Source: Actinomycetota bacterium (GTDB taxonomy: Bacteria > Actinomycetota > Acidimicrobiia > Acidimicrobiales > MedAcidi-G1). Taken from it: 47,186 nt of DNA. Shown here piece by piece: positions 32,910 to 39,146 of this stretch; within the stretch, counting starts at the first letter, position 1; each line of letters starts with the position of its first letter. The translations under genes were made by a program, and so were the position numbers. The notes beneath the pieces are model-generated. The model ran no database searches and had not been told where the DNA came from. It was given only the letters and a program-made list of their open reading frames with translations. Location: assembly GCA_014381945.1 (NCBI GenBank), contig JACNKQ010000023.1, positions 1 to 47,186 of the forward strand. Reading direction: 5' to 3'.

Positions 32910-32929
32910 CCGAGGGAGAAAGCGTCGCC

Positions 32930-33712
32930 ATGTCCGGATCCAACGGCGAGACCATCAACGTCACACTCAAGGTGTGGCGCCAGGCCGACGCCGACGCCCC
33001 CGGCGGCTTCGAGGTCCACCGGCAGGCCATCAGCACCGACGCCTCGTTCCTCGAGATGCTCGACCTGCTCAACGAAGAGCTCAACGCAGCCGGCCGGGAA
33101 CCCATTGCCTTTGAAAGCGACTGCCGTGAAGGAATCTGCGGAACCTGTGGCGTGATGATCAACGGCCGCGCCCACGGCCCCCAGAAGGCCACCGCCACCT
33201 GCCAACTCCACATGCGCGAGTTCCGCGACGGCGACGAGATCGTCATCGAACCCTTCCGGGCCGCCGGGTTCCCCGTGATCCGCGACCTCGCTGTCGACCG
33301 GTCGCCCCTCGACGCCATCGTCGAGGCCGGCGGCTACATCTCGGTCAACACCGGCGCTGCCTCCGACGCCAACCTCACCCCCGTCCCCAAGGTCGCCTCC
33401 GACCACGCCTTCGACGCCGCCGCCTGCATCGGCTGCGGAGCCTGCATTGCCGCATGCCCCAACTCGGCCGCCCAACTGTTCACCTCCGCCAAGATCGGCC
33501 ACCTCGGCCTGCTTCCCCAGGGCCAGGCCGAACGGTGGAGCCGCACAGAGGCCATGGTCGAGACCATGGAGGACTTCTTCGGGTCGTGCACCAACCACGG
33601 CGAGTGCACCGAGGCGTGCCCCAAGGAGATCAGCCTCGACTTCATCGCCCTCATGAACCGTGACTACATGAAGGCCAAGGTCAGGAACCGGGCCCTCACC
33701 GCCCAGCGCTGA
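32930..33712 (+). CDS. sdhB: succinate dehydrogenase iron-sulfur subunit
   Basis: Iron-sulfur protein of 260 aa. The 2Fe-2S ferredoxin-like domain has [15 protein letters not shown] with a distal ATCQLH. The second domain has [15 protein letters not shown] and [15 protein letters not shown] for the 4Fe-4S and 3Fe-4S clusters. It passes electrons from the flavoprotein to the membrane anchor. ATG at 32930 with GAGGGAG upstream, 20 bp after sdhA. Confidence 0.96.
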
Positions 33713-33827: not shown

Positions 33828-35216
33828 ATGCCCAAGACCATTCGCACAACATTCGCCCTTTTCCTGCTCGTCTCGCTGGTCGCCGTCGCCTGCGCCAAGG
33901 ACGAGGACGCCGGGACCGCCCAGCCGGATGCAGCCGGCACCGCGGTCTCCGGGGAGATAGAGGCAACCCCGGTCGTAGAGGTCGAAGGTGCCCACGTGGC
34001 CACGCTGACCCTCACCGAGTTCGCGATAGGCGGCGACCTGACCGTTCCCGCCGGACAGGTGGTCCTCTCGCTCGTGAACAAGGGAGCCATCGACCACAAC
34101 GTTCGCTTCGACGGCGACACCATCTCGCCTGACATCGCAGCCGGCGGGTCAGCGACGCTCGACCTCGGCAACCTCGAGCCGGGCACCTACGAACTGCTCT
34201 GTGAGATCGCCGGCCACAAGGAAGCCGGCATGGTCACCACCCTCACCGTGGTAGACGACGACGGCACGATGGCCGCATCCGACGGCCACGGACACGATGA
34301 CGAAATCGACTGGGCCGAGATGGACCGCATCATGCTCGAGTCGATCAGGGCGTTCCCGGCAGAAACAGAGGGAGTCGGCAACGAGGCCCTCGAGCCGACC
34401 GTGCTCGCAGACGGCACCAGGGAGTTCCACATCACCGCCGAGATCACCCCCTGGGAGGTTGAGCCCGGACGGATCGTGGACGCCTGGACCTACAACGGTC
34501 AGGTGCCCGGACCGACCATCCGGGTCGAAGACGGTGACAAGGTCCGGGTGGTGCTCGACAACCAGTTGCCGCTCGGAACCGACATCCACTGGCACGGGAT
34601 CCAGACGCCCAACTCCATGGACGGCGTGGCGCCTCTCACCCAGGACCTGGTCGAGTCGGGTGATTCGTTTGTTTACGAGTTCGTCGCCGAAGGGCCGAGG
34701 GTCGGCATGTACCACGCCCACCACATGGGCCACATGGCCATCCCCAACGGGCTATTCGGCGTGTTCACGATCGGCGAGGTGGCGTTGCCGCTCGGTCGCA
34801 CCATCAGCGGGATCGAGATCCCCGACGTGGTCGAGGTCGCCCAGAGGATCCCCATGGTGCTCAACGACGCCGGCGTCATCGGCTACTCGCTCAACGGCAA
34901 GTCGTTTCCGGCAACCCAGCCGTACGTAGCAACCGTCGGCGACTGGATCGTCGTCGACTACTACAACGAGGGCCTCCAGATCCACCCGATGCACATGCAC
35001 CAGTTCCCACAGGTGGTGTTCGCCAAGGACGGCTTCCCCCTCGACCATCCGTATGCCGCCGACACGATCAACGTCGCACCCGGCGAGCGGTACTCGGTGC
35101 TCGTCCAGGTCGACACGCCCGGCGTCTGGGTCTGGCACTGCCACATCCTCAGCCACGTCGAGCGCGATTCCGGCATGTTCGGCATGGTCACCGCCATAAT
35201 CGTGCAGGAGGCATGA
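33828..35216 (+). CDS. multicopper oxidase with N-terminal cupredoxin domain
   Basis: Predicted lipoprotein of 462 aa with lipobox VAVAC (Cys22). Residues about 50-142 are a plastocyanin-like domain with type 1 copper ligands H90, C125, H130 and M135 (DHNV; LLCEIAGHKEAGM). A His/Asp linker follows. Residues about 195-460 are a two-domain multicopper oxidase with HWH (254-256), HAH (296-298), HPMHMH (386-391) and HCHILSHVERDSGM (437-450), which supply the trinuclear cluster and a type 1 site. It would oxidise a phenolic, metal or nitrogen substrate outside the membrane. ATG at 33828 with GGAGG 6 nt upstream. An out-of-frame ATG at 33797 also has a strong ribosome site. Confidence 0.88.
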   Translation: MPKTIRTTFALFLLVSLVAVACAKDEDAGTAQPDAAGTAVSGEIEATPVVEVEGAHVATLTLTEFAIGGDLTVPAGQVVLSLVNKGAIDHNVRFDGDTISPDIAAGGSATLDLGNLEPGTYELLCEIAGHKEAGMVTTLTVVDDDGTMAASDGHGHDDEIDWAEMDRIMLESIRAFPAETEGVGNEALEPTVLADGTREFHITAEITPWEVEPGRIVDAWTYNGQVPGPTIRVEDGDKVRVVLDNQLPLGTDIHWHGIQTPNSMDGVAPLTQDLVESGDSFVYEFVAEGPRVGMYHAHHMGHMAIPNGLFGVFTIGEVALPLGRTISGIEIPDVVEVAQRIPMVLNDAGVIGYSLNGKSFPATQPYVATVGDWIVVDYYNEGLQIHPMHMHQFPQVVFAKDGFPLDHPYAADTINVAPGERYSVLVQVDTPGVWVWHCHILSHVERDSGMFGMVTAIIVQEA

Positions 35217-35238: not shown

Positions 35239-35267
35239 TTGACAAACCGGCGCTGCGGCGCGACAGT
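35239..35267 (+). promoter_or_regulatory. promoter of the candidate RNA
   Basis: A perfect -35 TTGACA (35239-35244) and a weak -10 GACAGT (35262-35267) with a 17-bp spacer, 22 bp after the oxidase stop. Predicted start of transcription near 35274. Confidence 0.45.
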
Positions 35268-35279
35268 GACATAGGTCAC
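35266..35279. promoter_or_regulatory. CRP/GlxR-like palindrome
   Basis: GTGAC-ATAG-GTCAC is a perfect 5+5 inverted repeat that fits GTGA-N2-TA-N2-TCAC, the core of CRP/GlxR sites. It covers the -10 box and the predicted start, so a bound regulator would be expected to repress. Confidence 0.5.
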
Positions 35280-35343
35280 CCTGCCTACAAGGTGGGGGGC
35301 TGATCGACACGGTCTTATGTCCACGAGCGACGGGAGGCTGAAC

Positions 35344-35394
35344 GTGCGATCCGACCGGTTCGAGGGACGGTGTCGAGCCCCACCCTGCGGGTGA
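35344..35394 (+). CDS. possible 16-aa leader peptide
   Basis: GTG at 35344 is preceded by GGGAGG at 6-nt spacing and runs 16 codons (VRSDRFEGRCRAPPCG) to a TGA inside the hairpin loop region. The position inside the candidate RNA arm would suit translation-dependent attenuation. No downstream pathway gene makes this obvious, so it may be chance. Confidence 0.25.
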   Translation: MRSDRFEGRCRAPPCG

Positions 35395-35506
35395 GTCCGA
35401 GGTCCCGGTAGAGAGCCGGTCCCCTCACGTTCTCGCAACCAACGCCCTGCTGGGCCTCGGAGAACGGCTGACGCGAGACGACTCGATCCCGGGCCTTGAA
35501 ATGGAG

Positions 35507-35539
35507 CGGCGTCCTCCCCATCCATTGAGGAGGGCGCCG
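35507..35539 (+). terminator. terminator-like hairpin of the candidate RNA
   Basis: CGGCGTCCTCC and GGAGGGCGCCG form an 11-bp stem with one G-T pair and an 11-nt loop, followed by TTT at 35540-35542. It is the best intrinsic-terminator candidate in the window. Confidence 0.65.
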
Positions 35540-35582
35540 TTTCGCGTGTCACAGGATGGTACTGACGGGGTTCATCGACCGA

Positions 35583-35611: not shown

Positions 35612-35637
35612 CCGTGGATATACGGTGTTCCATAGAC

Positions 35638-36165
35638 GTGTGGCAACGACGGGCGAAAAGGGCAACTGGTCTGGTCGCCGGTGTGCTCCTCATCGTTGCC
35701 TCACCGGCAAATGCCCAAGCCGTATCTTCTGATGAGCCGCAGCGAGAGGAACTGGTTGAGTCCGCACTCGGGGTCCTCACCATTGAGTCAGACGGGTTGG
35801 AATTGGTGAGAACCGTACGCACCTGGATCCGCCCAGATGGAGTCTTCCGTTCGACGTCACAGACGACGAGCGGCATAGGCCTCGGAGCTTCTGAAGATGT
35901 CTATGGACTCGGTGACGGCCGACAGATCGCCATCATCTCGCCTGCACGCGGGGTGCCTGGTCAAGCAACGCTGGTTGACAACAGTGCGCACTATGCGATC
36001 GATGGCAACGGTGAACGGTTGTCTGAGGGCTTTTCGAGGTCGACGGGATCGGCCAGCGTCGCCTATCGCGTCTTGCAGGTCGATCGCGTCGCTGCCACTC
36101 AAGCCTTTTTAGCAACTGCCGCTGCTATTGAAGACCGCTGTTCCGGTACACCAGGCTTCCGTTGA
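35638..36165 (+). CDS. exported orphan protein, possibly frameshifted
   Basis: Protein of 175 aa that I do not recognise. The signal peptide is VWQRRAKRATGLVAGVLLIVASPANAQA, with an AxA cleavage site. The mature part is strand-rich and polar (ESDGLELVRTVRTWIRPDGVFRSTSQTTSG .. YGLGDGRQIAIISP). GTG at 35638 was chosen over 35614 from the promoter position. The region is visibly less GC-rich than its neighbours with more varied third positions, which suggests foreign origin. Its end overlaps the next frame by 38 bp; a one-base change between 36113 and 36165 would join the two. Confidence 0.6.
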   Translation: MWQRRAKRATGLVAGVLLIVASPANAQAVSSDEPQREELVESALGVLTIESDGLELVRTVRTWIRPDGVFRSTSQTTSGIGLGASEDVYGLGDGRQIAIISPARGVPGQATLVDNSAHYAIDGNGERLSEGFSRSTGSASVAYRVLQVDRVAATQAFLATAAAIEDRCSGTPGFR

Positions 36166-36541
36166 GTCGCCGTCCACTGGAGACCCACGCTCCTCGGCAT
36201 GGAACTTCGGCTACGGAATGCTCGCGTACGGAACCCAGCCATGCTCTCTGCACTACAACTACCGAAACAACGTGAGCGACTTCTTCTATGCCTACACCCT
36301 GCGCCGTCCCGCGTGTCGCTGGGTCCAGGTATCCCTGTGGAACTGGGCGCTCGGAAGTCCATGCGGTGGCGCGTTCGTCGGCGTCGGACCGCTCTCCACC
36401 TACTTCTCCTCAGCGTCCACCTATTCGGACACCATCAACGGCTACTCGTACGAATACATGTGCTCCAACCATGCAGCGTGGGATGAGGATTGGGTGCTCC
36501 ATGTGCCTTGGGTCTCCCTCCGCGCCGGTGTGCCGGGCTGA
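36128..36541 (+). CDS. Trp/Tyr/Cys-rich orphan, likely continuation of previous gene
   Basis: Frame of 137 aa, starting at TTG if independent. Aromatic- and Cys-rich (SAWNFGYGMLAYGTQPCSLHYNYRNN; CRWVQVSLWNWALGSPCGG; YEYMCSNHAAWDEDW), a composition typical of secreted domains, but it has no signal peptide. It opens at 36113 after a TAG in that frame, inside the end of the previous gene. The most economical reading is one secreted protein of about 300 aa broken by a single-base frameshift. A translationally coupled second gene is the alternative. Confidence 0.5.
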   Translation: MKTAVPVHQASVESPSTGDPRSSAWNFGYGMLAYGTQPCSLHYNYRNNVSDFFYAYTLRRPACRWVQVSLWNWALGSPCGGAFVGVGPLSTYFSSASTYSDTINGYSYEYMCSNHAAWDEDWVLHVPWVSLRAGVPG

Positions 36542-36549
36542 TCCGAATC

Positions 36550-36915
36550 ATGCGGGATTGGTCGAGGTCAGTTCATGTCCTGCTCGCACTCGGTCTCTTG
36601 TTCGGCTGCGCATCCGCGGCAGACGCCCGCTACCGGGAATCGGCTGAGCACGCGGTTGTGCAGTGGATCAACACCACCGGGCTCGTGACGACAGTCGGTA
36701 CGTGGGAGGATCGGCTGGCTGACCTTTGTGCCACCGACCCGTGGAACGAAGCCACGGCACGAGCCTTCGCCGAGGAGTTCCTCGATGCCGACGGTGGCGG
36801 CGACCAACTGCTCGCCCACGCCATGGGGTCGGTCTGGCTCAACGCCCTCGACGCCTGCCGAGAACGCTTTCCCGCATCGGCCATCGAGTCCGGCCCACCC
36901 CGTCCCGGGCCCTAA
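36550..36915 (+). CDS. small predicted lipoprotein
   Basis: Protein of 121 aa. The signal peptide VHVLLALGLLFG is followed by lipobox LFGC; the mature part is YRESAEHAVVQWINTTGLVTTVGTWEDRLADLCATDP with several Cys and Trp residues. ATG at 36550, 8 bp after the preceding frame, so it is probably the last gene of the same small exported-protein operon. Not recognised. A longer frame upstream (from 36490) lacks a signal-peptide-like start. Confidence 0.6.
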   Translation: MRDWSRSVHVLLALGLLFGCASAADARYRESAEHAVVQWINTTGLVTTVGTWEDRLADLCATDPWNEATARAFAEEFLDADGGGDQLLAHAMGSVWLNALDACRERFPASAIESGPPRPGP

Positions 36916-36933: not shown

Positions 36934-37761
36934 CTACGCGGCCAGGTGCTTCAGCACCTTCGGCAGCAACTCGGGCAGGCAGGCGTCCGGGACCTCGTGG
37001 CCGAGGCCCTCGACCAGCCAGAGTTCAGCGCCGGGGATGCCCTCGGCGAGGGCGATGCCGTGCTCGACCGGAAACACCGGGTCGGCAGTGCCGTGGACAA
37101 CGAGCGTCCGGGCCGCGATGTCGTCCAGCCGGTCGAGGCGTGACGGCGACGAGTTGACGGCCGGACCGTGCCCCGTCTCGGGGAACCAGCAACGGGCCAC
37201 ATCGGTGTCGGCGACAAGCGTCGCTGCCGTCTCATCGAACGGGTAGCGGTTGCCGACGAAGAGCCGGTCGAGTTCGACAAGCCACGCCACCTTCTCGACA
37301 TGTCCGACGGGAGGTGGGGCGAAGAGGCGCTCGGTCATCTGGTCGACCAGCCTGTCGTCCGGGGGTGGAAGGCGATCGTCGCCGAGCCCCGGGGTGGAGC
37401 ACAACAGGGTCAGCGACCGCACCCGTTCGGGGTGCTCGAGCGCCATGACCTGGGCGACCATTCCTCCCATCGAACGGCCGATCAGATGGGCGGCCTCGGT
37501 TCCCTCGCCGTCGAGCACCCGGCAGGCGTCGACCTCCAGGTCGTCGAGCGTGTAGCCGACATCGGAGGGCAGTTTCGTGGAAAGCCCACAATCGCGTGTG
37601 TCGAACCGCACCACCCGATGGCCGGCTCCGACAAGCGGATCCACGAATGCCGGCGTCCACCGCGTGCACTGGGCGTCGGCACCCGACAACAGCAGCACCG
37701 GCTCGCCGTCGACCGGCCCGAGGGCCTCGACGTGCAGTTCGACCGACGACCCATCACCCAT
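36934..37761 (-). CDS. alpha/beta hydrolase
   Basis: Alpha/beta hydrolase fold protein of 275 aa: strand-3 LLLSGADAQCTRWTP, DTRDCGLSTK, nucleophile elbow LIGRSMGGMVAQ (Ser in GxSxG), acid region VVHGTADPVFPVEHG (Asp), and the catalytic His in VEGLGHEVPD. Cytosolic. It resembles esterase/carboxylesterase-type members such as tropinesterase-like proteins; substrate unknown. The ATG at 37761 has a TACCCT box 8 nt upstream. Convergent with the lipoprotein gene and divergent from the thioesterase. Confidence 0.88.
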   Translation of the reverse strand: MGDGSSVELHVEALGPVDGEPVLLLSGADAQCTRWTPAFVDPLVGAGHRVVRFDTRDCGLSTKLPSDVGYTLDDLEVDACRVLDGEGTEAAHLIGRSMGGMVAQVMALEHPERVRSLTLLCSTPGLGDDRLPPPDDRLVDQMTERLFAPPPVGHVEKVAWLVELDRLFVGNRYPFDETAATLVADTDVARCWFPETGHGPAVNSSPSRLDRLDDIAARTLVVHGTADPVFPVEHGIALAEGIPGAELWLVEGLGHEVPDACLPELLPKVLKHLAA

Positions 37762-37769
37762 GGCTCGGG

Positions 37770-37775
37770 AGGGTA
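37770..37775 (-). promoter_or_regulatory. -10 box, leaderless
   Basis: TACCCT on the minus strand ends 8 nt before the ATG at 37761 of the hydrolase. Confidence 0.5.
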
Positions 37776-37802
37776 CCCACGCCGACCCGGTAGGACGAGG
37801 GC

Positions 37803-37808
37803 TAGCGT
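37803..37808 (+). promoter_or_regulatory. -10 box, leaderless
   Basis: TAGCGT ends 7 nt before the ATG at 37816 of the thioesterase. Confidence 0.55.
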
Positions 37809-37815
37809 CCTCCCG

Positions 37816-38238
37816 ATGCCCGAATGCCACCGACACACAGTCAAGGTCCGCTTCTACGAGCTCGACCCCTACGGACACCTCAACCATTCCGTGTACGTGC
37901 AGTTGTTCGAGACCGGCCGCATCGAGCTGCTCGACTCGGTGGGGCTCGGGCTCCAGGACCTCGAGGGTCGTGGCTACCGGTTCATCGTCTCGCGCATCGA
38001 GACCCGGTTCCTCGCCTCGGCCGTAGGTGGCGACTCCCTCGTCATCGAGACCGAGGTGGTCCAGAACCGGCGAGCGTCGTCACGGTGGGGCCAGCGGATC
38101 CTGCGCGGCGACGAGGTCCTCGCCACCCAGGAGGTGCTCGTTGCGGTCACCGACACCGACGGCAGGCCGGTGCGGATCCCGGCCCTGATCAGCGATGCGC
38201 TCGCCCCGTACGCGATCGATCATGAAGGGCCGACCTGA
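37816..38238 (+). CDS. 4HBT/YbgC-type acyl-CoA thioesterase
   Basis: Single hot-dog protein of 140 aa. The active-site helix motif is VRFYELDPYGHLNHSVYVQLFETGRIELL, with the catalytic Asp in D-x2-GH-x-N. A typical second half follows (FIVSRIETRFLASAVGGDSLVIETEV). It would hydrolyse an acyl-CoA or acyl carrier thioester. The TGA stop overlaps the ATG of the DUF368 gene (TGATG), so the two are coupled. Confidence 0.88.
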   Translation: MPECHRHTVKVRFYELDPYGHLNHSVYVQLFETGRIELLDSVGLGLQDLEGRGYRFIVSRIETRFLASAVGGDSLVIETEVVQNRRASSRWGQRILRGDEVLATQEVLVAVTDTDGRPVRIPALISDALAPYAIDHEGPT

Positions 38239-39146
38239 TGGCCACCCAGGCAAGCACGGCCACGCGCGTTGCCCAGGGTGCCCTCATGGGGGCGGCCAAC
38301 ATCGTGCCCGGGGTCTCGGGCGGGACCCTCGCCCTCATGTTCGGCATCTACGAGCGTCTCATCGGTGCGATCCGAGACGGCGCCGGATCGCTGCTCCGGT
38401 TCGCCCGCGGTGACGTACGGGGGGGCATCGACCGCCTGAAGTCGGTCGAGTGGGGGCTCCTGCTACCGCTGGCCGGCGGAGCGTTCATAACGGTCGTCGT
38501 GCTCGCCGGGCTGCTCGAATCCGGACTCGAGAACCATCCTGAGGAGATGGCCGGACTGTTCCTCGGCCTCGTGATGGCGTCGATCGTGGTGTCGTGGCGG
38601 CTCCCCAAATGGGACGGCCCCCGCCTGGTCCTGATGGCGGTCGTCGGCGTGATCCTGTTCGCCGCCCTCGGCTGGCAGACCGGACCGGTCGTCGACCCGT
38701 CACCGCTCGTACTGTTCGTGGCCGGGGCGATCGCCGTCTGCGCAATGATCCTGCCCGGCCTGTCCGGTTCGTTCCTTCTGCTCATGTTCGGCATGTACGA
38801 GGCCGTCCTGACCGTGATCGACGAGCGGACGATCGGCGATGCCGTCGTGTTCGGCGTGGGCGCCCTGCTGGGCCTGGCGCTGTTCGCCTCGCTGCTCACC
38901 CGACTCCTCGAACGTCACCACGACACGATGCTGGCCGTGCTCATCGGCCTCATGGTCGGCTCGTTGCGGGTGCTGTGGCCCTGGCCCAACGGCGTGGGCG
39001 TCATCGGCGACACCGCCGACTCGTCGATTTCCGGCACGGACCTCGAATGGCCACCGGCCGGCGACCTGCCGGTTCCGCTGCTGCTCGCCGCCGCAGCGTT
39101 CGCCGTCGTGCTCATCGTCGACCGCCTAGCCCACAATCGCTCCTGA
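38238..39146 (+). CDS. popT: DUF368 undecaprenyl-phosphate translocase (PopT-type)
   Basis: Membrane protein of 302 aa of the DUF368 family, members of which (PopT) recycle undecaprenyl phosphate across the membrane. The N-terminal signature GALMGAANIVPGVSGGTLALMFGIYERLI is repeated in the second half as AMILPGLSGSFLLLMFGMYEAVL, the inverted-repeat hallmark. About nine membrane segments. Start overlaps the thioesterase stop. The assignment rests on the family; PopT has been shown in other bacteria. Confidence 0.88.
   Translation: MATQASTATRVAQGALMGAANIVPGVSGGTLALMFGIYERLIGAIRDGAGSLLRFARGDVRGGIDRLKSVEWGLLLPLAGGAFITVVVLAGLLESGLENHPEEMAGLFLGLVMASIVVSWRLPKWDGPRLVLMAVVGVILFAALGWQTGPVVDPSPLVLFVAGAIAVCAMILPGLSGSFLLLMFGMYEAVLTVIDERTIGDAVVFGVGALLGLALFASLLTRLLERHHDTMLAVLIGLMVGSLRVLWPWPNGVGVIGDTADSSISGTDLEWPPAGDLPVPLLLAAAAFAVVLIVDRLAHNRS

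Follow-up and report, generated by a model that had tools for sequence, protein, structure and literature searches.

Several described bacterial systems resemble, in one respect or another, a structured RNA that we find beside the succinate dehydrogenase genes of Acidimicrobiales. Ms1 (MTS2823, scr3559) is made from a stand-alone gene with its own promoter, is about 230-300 nt long, and folds into a long hairpin with short hairpins near its ends (PMC4191392, PMC9130861). Its conserved neighbors are an HAD hydrolase, an oxidoreductase, and a morphological-differentiation gene (PMC9130861), and the orders for which Ms1 is listed do not include Acidimicrobiia. 6S RNA (RF00013) also combines a long hairpin, a closing helix, and a terminal stem-loop, and it has been proposed that each species has one abundant polymerase-binding RNA (PMC11077062). 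SdhX (RybD) of enteric bacteria lies downstream of the sdh genes on the same strand, is processed from mRNA, and depends on Hfq (PMC6393394). Finally, the RAPP arrest peptides ApdA, ApdP, and CruR have R-A/S-P-P a few residues from the stop codon of a short open reading frame (ORF). Ribosome stalling by RAPP is proven, with RSPP partly permissive (PMC10951233, PMC10987492, PMC12992588), and in CruR, which acts in copper control, RAPP lies three residues from the C terminus (PMC9426467). Our search of the literature on RNAs of Acidimicrobiia found nothing relevant.

The locus lies in a 47,186-nucleotide stretch of contig JACNKQ010000023.1 (assembly GCA_014381945.1), here called the window. Position, promoter, terminator, and fold are all conserved, and on these grounds it is almost certain that the window holds a real RNA gene next to sdhB, at about 35274-35545 on the plus strand, with both ends placed by the promoter and terminator and the assignment drawn from conservation, covariation, and synteny. 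A perfect -35 element had been noted in the preliminary description, and it was indeed found: TTGACA at 35239-35244 is followed after 17 bases by the -10-like GACAGT at 35262-35267, both on the plus strand and conserved in loci of the window's own family (f1) with identical spacing. In a second family (f35), TTGAC occurs at a similar distance upstream of the RNA in all 20 loci. The 11-bp terminator-like hairpin followed by TTT also stood in substance, although we count 10 bp rather than 11: a GC-rich helix of 35508-35517 with 35529-35538, including one G-U pair, precedes GTTT, and the whole element (35508-35542, plus strand) is kept in f1. The corresponding helix in f35 shows changes on both sides in 9 of 13 pairs. 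A strict consensus scan of the stretch called neither a sigma-70 promoter nor a T-rich terminator; it misses GACAGT because this hexamer diverges from TATAAT, and the assignment of both elements rests on conservation rather than on the scan.

A DNA search covering 149 related genomes recovered the stretch in f1, and in an alignment of 22 f1 loci the promoter, core, and terminator are conserved. A covariance model, R1, places the RNA in 22 of 48 f1 genomes. It is missing from several f1 genomes that are more than 90% complete and is therefore dispensable, although most of these assemblies are metagenomic and an absence may reflect an assembly gap. When the region 3' of sdhB was scanned in other families, a single match came up in f35, weak but in the right place, and its sequence shows double compensatory changes (CGnUCUC/GAGAACG to GCUUCUC/GAGAAGC). 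A model including that match, R2, found the RNA in 20 of 41 f35 genomes and in 6 of the 10 genera sampled, with E-values from 7e-13 to 0.06; the weak matches are supported too because of their syntenic position. R1 had recovered only f1 in a search of 345 genomes of the class, which, given what R2 later found in f35, makes it an insensitive model. Apart from f35 genus g40, the region 3' of sdhB in other families gave noise-level matches only, and near 25 multicopper oxidase loci of other families there were two weak, unverified RNA matches. All 16 named public matches to the core pattern come from assemblies labeled Acidimicrobiales, Acidimicrobiia, Ca. Microthrix, or Actinomycetota.

In both families the RNA is single copy and lies in synteny downstream of sdhAB. 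The upstream neighbor in the window is sdhB itself (succinate dehydrogenase iron-sulfur subunit; 32918-33712, plus strand), and the conserved convergent neighbor downstream is an alpha/beta hydrolase ORF (36934-37887, minus strand; the true start may lie inside the ORF), both identified by Pfam and synteny. Among 20 f1 loci, sdhB is upstream in 18, one of the remaining two starting at a contig end; the convergent hydrolase is downstream in all 20, followed by a thioesterase and, in nearly all, by a PF04018 protein. Gene order in f35 is sdhAB, RNA, hydrolase, PF04018 protein, except that genus g40 lacks the hydrolase, locus L205 shows none, and sdhB is not seen in the available flank of three loci. 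The PF04018 gene (undecaprenyl phosphate translocase-like; 38238-39146 in the window) belongs to the conserved neighborhood and lies directly 3' of the RNA in genus g40. In readable genomes without the RNA, the hydrolase comes directly after sdhB. One of these, the close relative G001, has bases past sdhB (L144, after 2286) similar to the terminator that ends the RNA gene, which suggests a recent deletion. An intact multicopper oxidase gene precedes the RNA in the window (33828-35216) and in genome G008 (L058). At L044, L054, L056, L060, L061, and L146, in six other genomes, the C-terminal end of the oxidase alone remains just 5' of the RNA, as though these genomes had lost the oxidase but kept the RNA. 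This neighborhood is suggestive beside the copper control of CruR, and it is not functional evidence.

The energy of a single folded sequence says little. It only mildly beats shuffled versions (z = -2.08, with 4 of 200 as good; z = -1.80 for the reverse strand), and folding energy alone is therefore weak evidence. It is the comparison of homologues that proves a secondary structure. The core is a long imperfect hairpin at 35401-35495 (plus strand), with helices 35401-35406/35490-35495, 35412-35421/35477-35485, 35422-35429/35465-35476, 35431-35434/35460-35463, and 35444-35447/35452-35455, and its compensatory changes extend to those between f1 and f35. In a joint alignment of the two families, 91.6% of core cells pair, and changes on both sides occur in 9 of 24 pairs, compared with 4.6 +/- 1.2 in shuffles (0 of 500 reach this count), and the score for covariation is 0.207 against 0.112. 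In the apical stem and the outer helix the two families are misregistered by one base, which lowers these pairing counts rather than raising them. Over the full length of the f35 RNAs, pairing extends to 88.9% of cells (39-48% in slid controls), and both-side changes affect 27 pairs and 102 cells, where shuffles average 17.2 and 33.3, with 0 of 500 as high. Some of this margin is expected, as this alignment also supplied the structure and such counts are inflated by related sequences, but 102 double-changed cells against 7-33 in the slid versions are hard to attribute to inflation of that kind.

The f35 fold comprises a 5' helix (GUCAC/GUGAC), a long-range closing helix (AGGGAGG/CCUUCCU), a side domain, the core hairpin, and the terminator; core and terminator are kept in f1, where the closing helix is not evident. 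At columns 228-232, 262-267, and 276-280 of the A5 alignment, an invariant UUCUC in f35 loci can pair with GGAGAA or with GAGAG further on, so that the f35 core may adopt two alternative folds. The call for compensatory changes in homologues was thus answered by strong covariation, for a structure other than the one first drawn. The arm that had been named, closed by 35340-35346 with 35426-35432, forms all seven pairs only in the five loci of genus g1, six of seven in genus g6 and L012, and three to five elsewhere; it is mostly unconserved, and a different long hairpin is what the homologues support.

On sequence evidence, then, this is a free-standing RNA gene, kept in place and structure across two families of Acidimicrobiales. 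The proposal of an uncharacterized structured RNA that may act as a regulatory small RNA is upheld by the conserved promoter and terminator, the synteny, and the strong covariation, and by the lack of an Rfam family. Against Rfam 15 the window gave no match at the gathering threshold, and E-value searches of the stretch (E <= 10) and of 12 homologous loci gave only noise far below gathering scores, in agreement with the earlier failure to match a known family. An aberrant tmRNA, RNase P RNA, or SRP RNA was rejected, as all three are found elsewhere in the window's genome. The 5' end of a group II intron (GUGCG) was dropped, these bases being unconserved in g2, g4, and f35. 6S RNA gave no match at E <= 1 in the genome of the window and is absent among the matches of six f35 loci at E <= 1.

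The preliminary description held that the stretch contains no supportable long gene. Taken literally this is correct, but it overlooks a short conserved ORF at 35344-35394 on the plus strand (16 codons from GTG, then TGA; MRSDRFEGRCRAPPCG), whose start codon sits within the bases of the arm first named. In f1 a Shine-Dalgarno sequence (GGGAGG at 35332-35337, plus strand, in the window) stands 6-8 bases ahead of ATG or GTG; the matching GGGAGG in f35 forms the long-range closing helix. The frame reaches TGA after 16, 26, or 32 codons in 21 of 22 f1 loci; in L021 it is broken by one base, on a contig that also has unresolved bases. The peptides of 16-32 residues end in R-(A/S/T)-P-P-x-(G/R/A)-stop, the window's R-A-P-P codons of arrest type (PMC10951233, PMC12992588) lying at 35374-35385 on the plus strand. 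The coding score of this frame is 33.0, compared with 4.4-14.1 in the other five frames, and 8 of 500 column shuffles score as high. Within the R-x-P-P block, 4 of 4 wobble positions vary and 7 of 8 others are invariant (P about 0.01), although a small hairpin involves these bases as well, and coding and pairing constraints are thus not fully separable. That hairpin (five pairs, 35381-35393, plus strand) overlaps the Pro codons and the stop codon; 97% of its cells are paired, and its changes are one-sided only. In f1 only, there is thus moderate statistical support for a translated short ORF, conserved at the peptide level and with a RAPP-like motif near the C terminus, as in a putative arrest peptide of the RAPP type. 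Among f35 loci, only L205 has a small ORF of this kind (1432-1479, MPTAVEPDERAPPAT), led by a Shine-Dalgarno sequence and ending in RAPP, with AGG rather than CGN for Arg; it may be a chance occurrence. A second ORF after GGAGAACGUUG was rejected, as neither its frame nor its stop is conserved, and so was a switch in which GUGAG at the stop codon pairs with CUCAC, the probability of which is 0-0.09 in all 22 loci.

What might such an RNA do? At most loci of both families, no conserved gene follows the RNA on its own strand, which disfavors a leader acting in cis and points to a role in trans. Our tentative choice is a protein-binding regulatory RNA laid out like Ms1 or 6S RNA, with RNA polymerase the likeliest partner, a function we infer from layout and place well short of an even chance. 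The layout and length of the RNA, together with the absence of any 6S match from the genome, make this the best single guess. The layout of the f35 RNA, with a 5' hairpin, a long double-stranded hairpin interrupted in the middle, and a 3' hairpin in about 280-350 nt, resembles Ms1 as described in print (PMC4191392, PMC9130861). The f1 RNA, unlike Ms1, carries an ORF, and the neighbors here are sdhB and an alpha/beta hydrolase. Compared with 6S RNA, with which the f35 form shares the closing helix, the RNA is longer and neither genome nor homologues match the family model. An ORF would not be expected in a polymerase-binding RNA, and long hairpins with internal loops are common rather than specific to one class; both points count against this reading, which is weakened further because the RNA is dispensable and its neighbors differ from those of Ms1. 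Were it correct, the RNA would be transcribed as a regulatory RNA, its core hairpin would be recognized by a protein, most likely RNA polymerase, and it would fill the role of Ms1 in other actinobacteria and of 6S RNA elsewhere, holding polymerase as growth slows. In f1, a ribosome translating the mini-ORF, and perhaps pausing on it, would occupy the 5' end and might couple the folding or lifetime of the RNA to translation. More doubtful is a stronger version for f1, in which the free-standing regulatory RNA has a built-in arrest mini-ORF whose RAPP peptide would hold a ribosome, or set its pace, on the small RNA itself, so that the RNA reads out the state of translation rather than controlling a downstream gene.

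Antisense action is nearly as likely as a role like that of Ms1 or 6S RNA, and likewise only a possibility. A C-rich strand (GGUCCCCUCACG in f1, CCGCUCCCACGA in f35) would pair with target mRNAs in trans, for example at ribosome-binding sites, with the hairpins stabilizing and presenting it. Its near invariance inside each family and the stand-alone gene with promoter and terminator fit this well, whereas its place within the conserved long hairpin, where it is largely paired in the consensus, does not. It is unlikely that the RNA is an arrest-peptide leader of the CruR or SecM type, in which pausing on the mini-ORF decides terminator read-through or refolding. The conserved Shine-Dalgarno sequence, start, frame, and R-(A/S/T)-P-P end, the coding score, the proven arrest motif with its partly permissive RSPP variant (PMC10951233, PMC12992588), and the parallel with CruR (PMC9426467) speak for it, but there is no conserved gene on the same strand to regulate, a convergent hydrolase lying there in relatives, and f35 RNAs other than L205 lack the ORF. 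Masking the footprint of a stalled ribosome, moreover, shifted core folding up in 5 loci and down in 5, with no consistent change, and the stalled ribosome as a folding switch was rejected. Published RAPP upstream ORFs are also far longer (about 100 residues or more) and mostly exported, whereas the peptides here have no obvious signal sequence and their stalling is predicted from the motif. Still less probable is a small RNA from the 3' end of the sdh operon, coordinating respiration with other pathways as SdhX does; the RNA is on the same strand, downstream of sdhAB wherever sdhB is in the available sequence, but unlike SdhX it is larger, highly structured, and has a conserved promoter of its own, and genes such as the multicopper oxidase of the window can intervene. 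It is hardly credible that the RNA serves as a leader for the exported-protein genes downstream, as had been suggested. Three ORFs do follow on the same strand (35614-36915), one of them exported-protein-like and none with a Pfam match, yet nothing matches them at 20 other f1 loci with the RNA. There the convergent hydrolase is the next gene, and by that comparison the three ORFs are an insertion specific to the window. The comparison refutes the leader as a general role, although the RNA may have been co-opted in the window.

Taken together, the evidence strongly supports an RNA family that Rfam lacks. It belongs to Acidimicrobiia, a class from which the literature we searched reports no RNA of this kind. 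If the RNA binds polymerase, it would be the missing counterpart of 6S RNA and Ms1 in Acidimicrobiia and would test the proposal of one polymerase-binding RNA per species. Should ribosomes stall on the mini-ORF, its product would be an arrest peptide employed outside the usual upstream-ORF setting.
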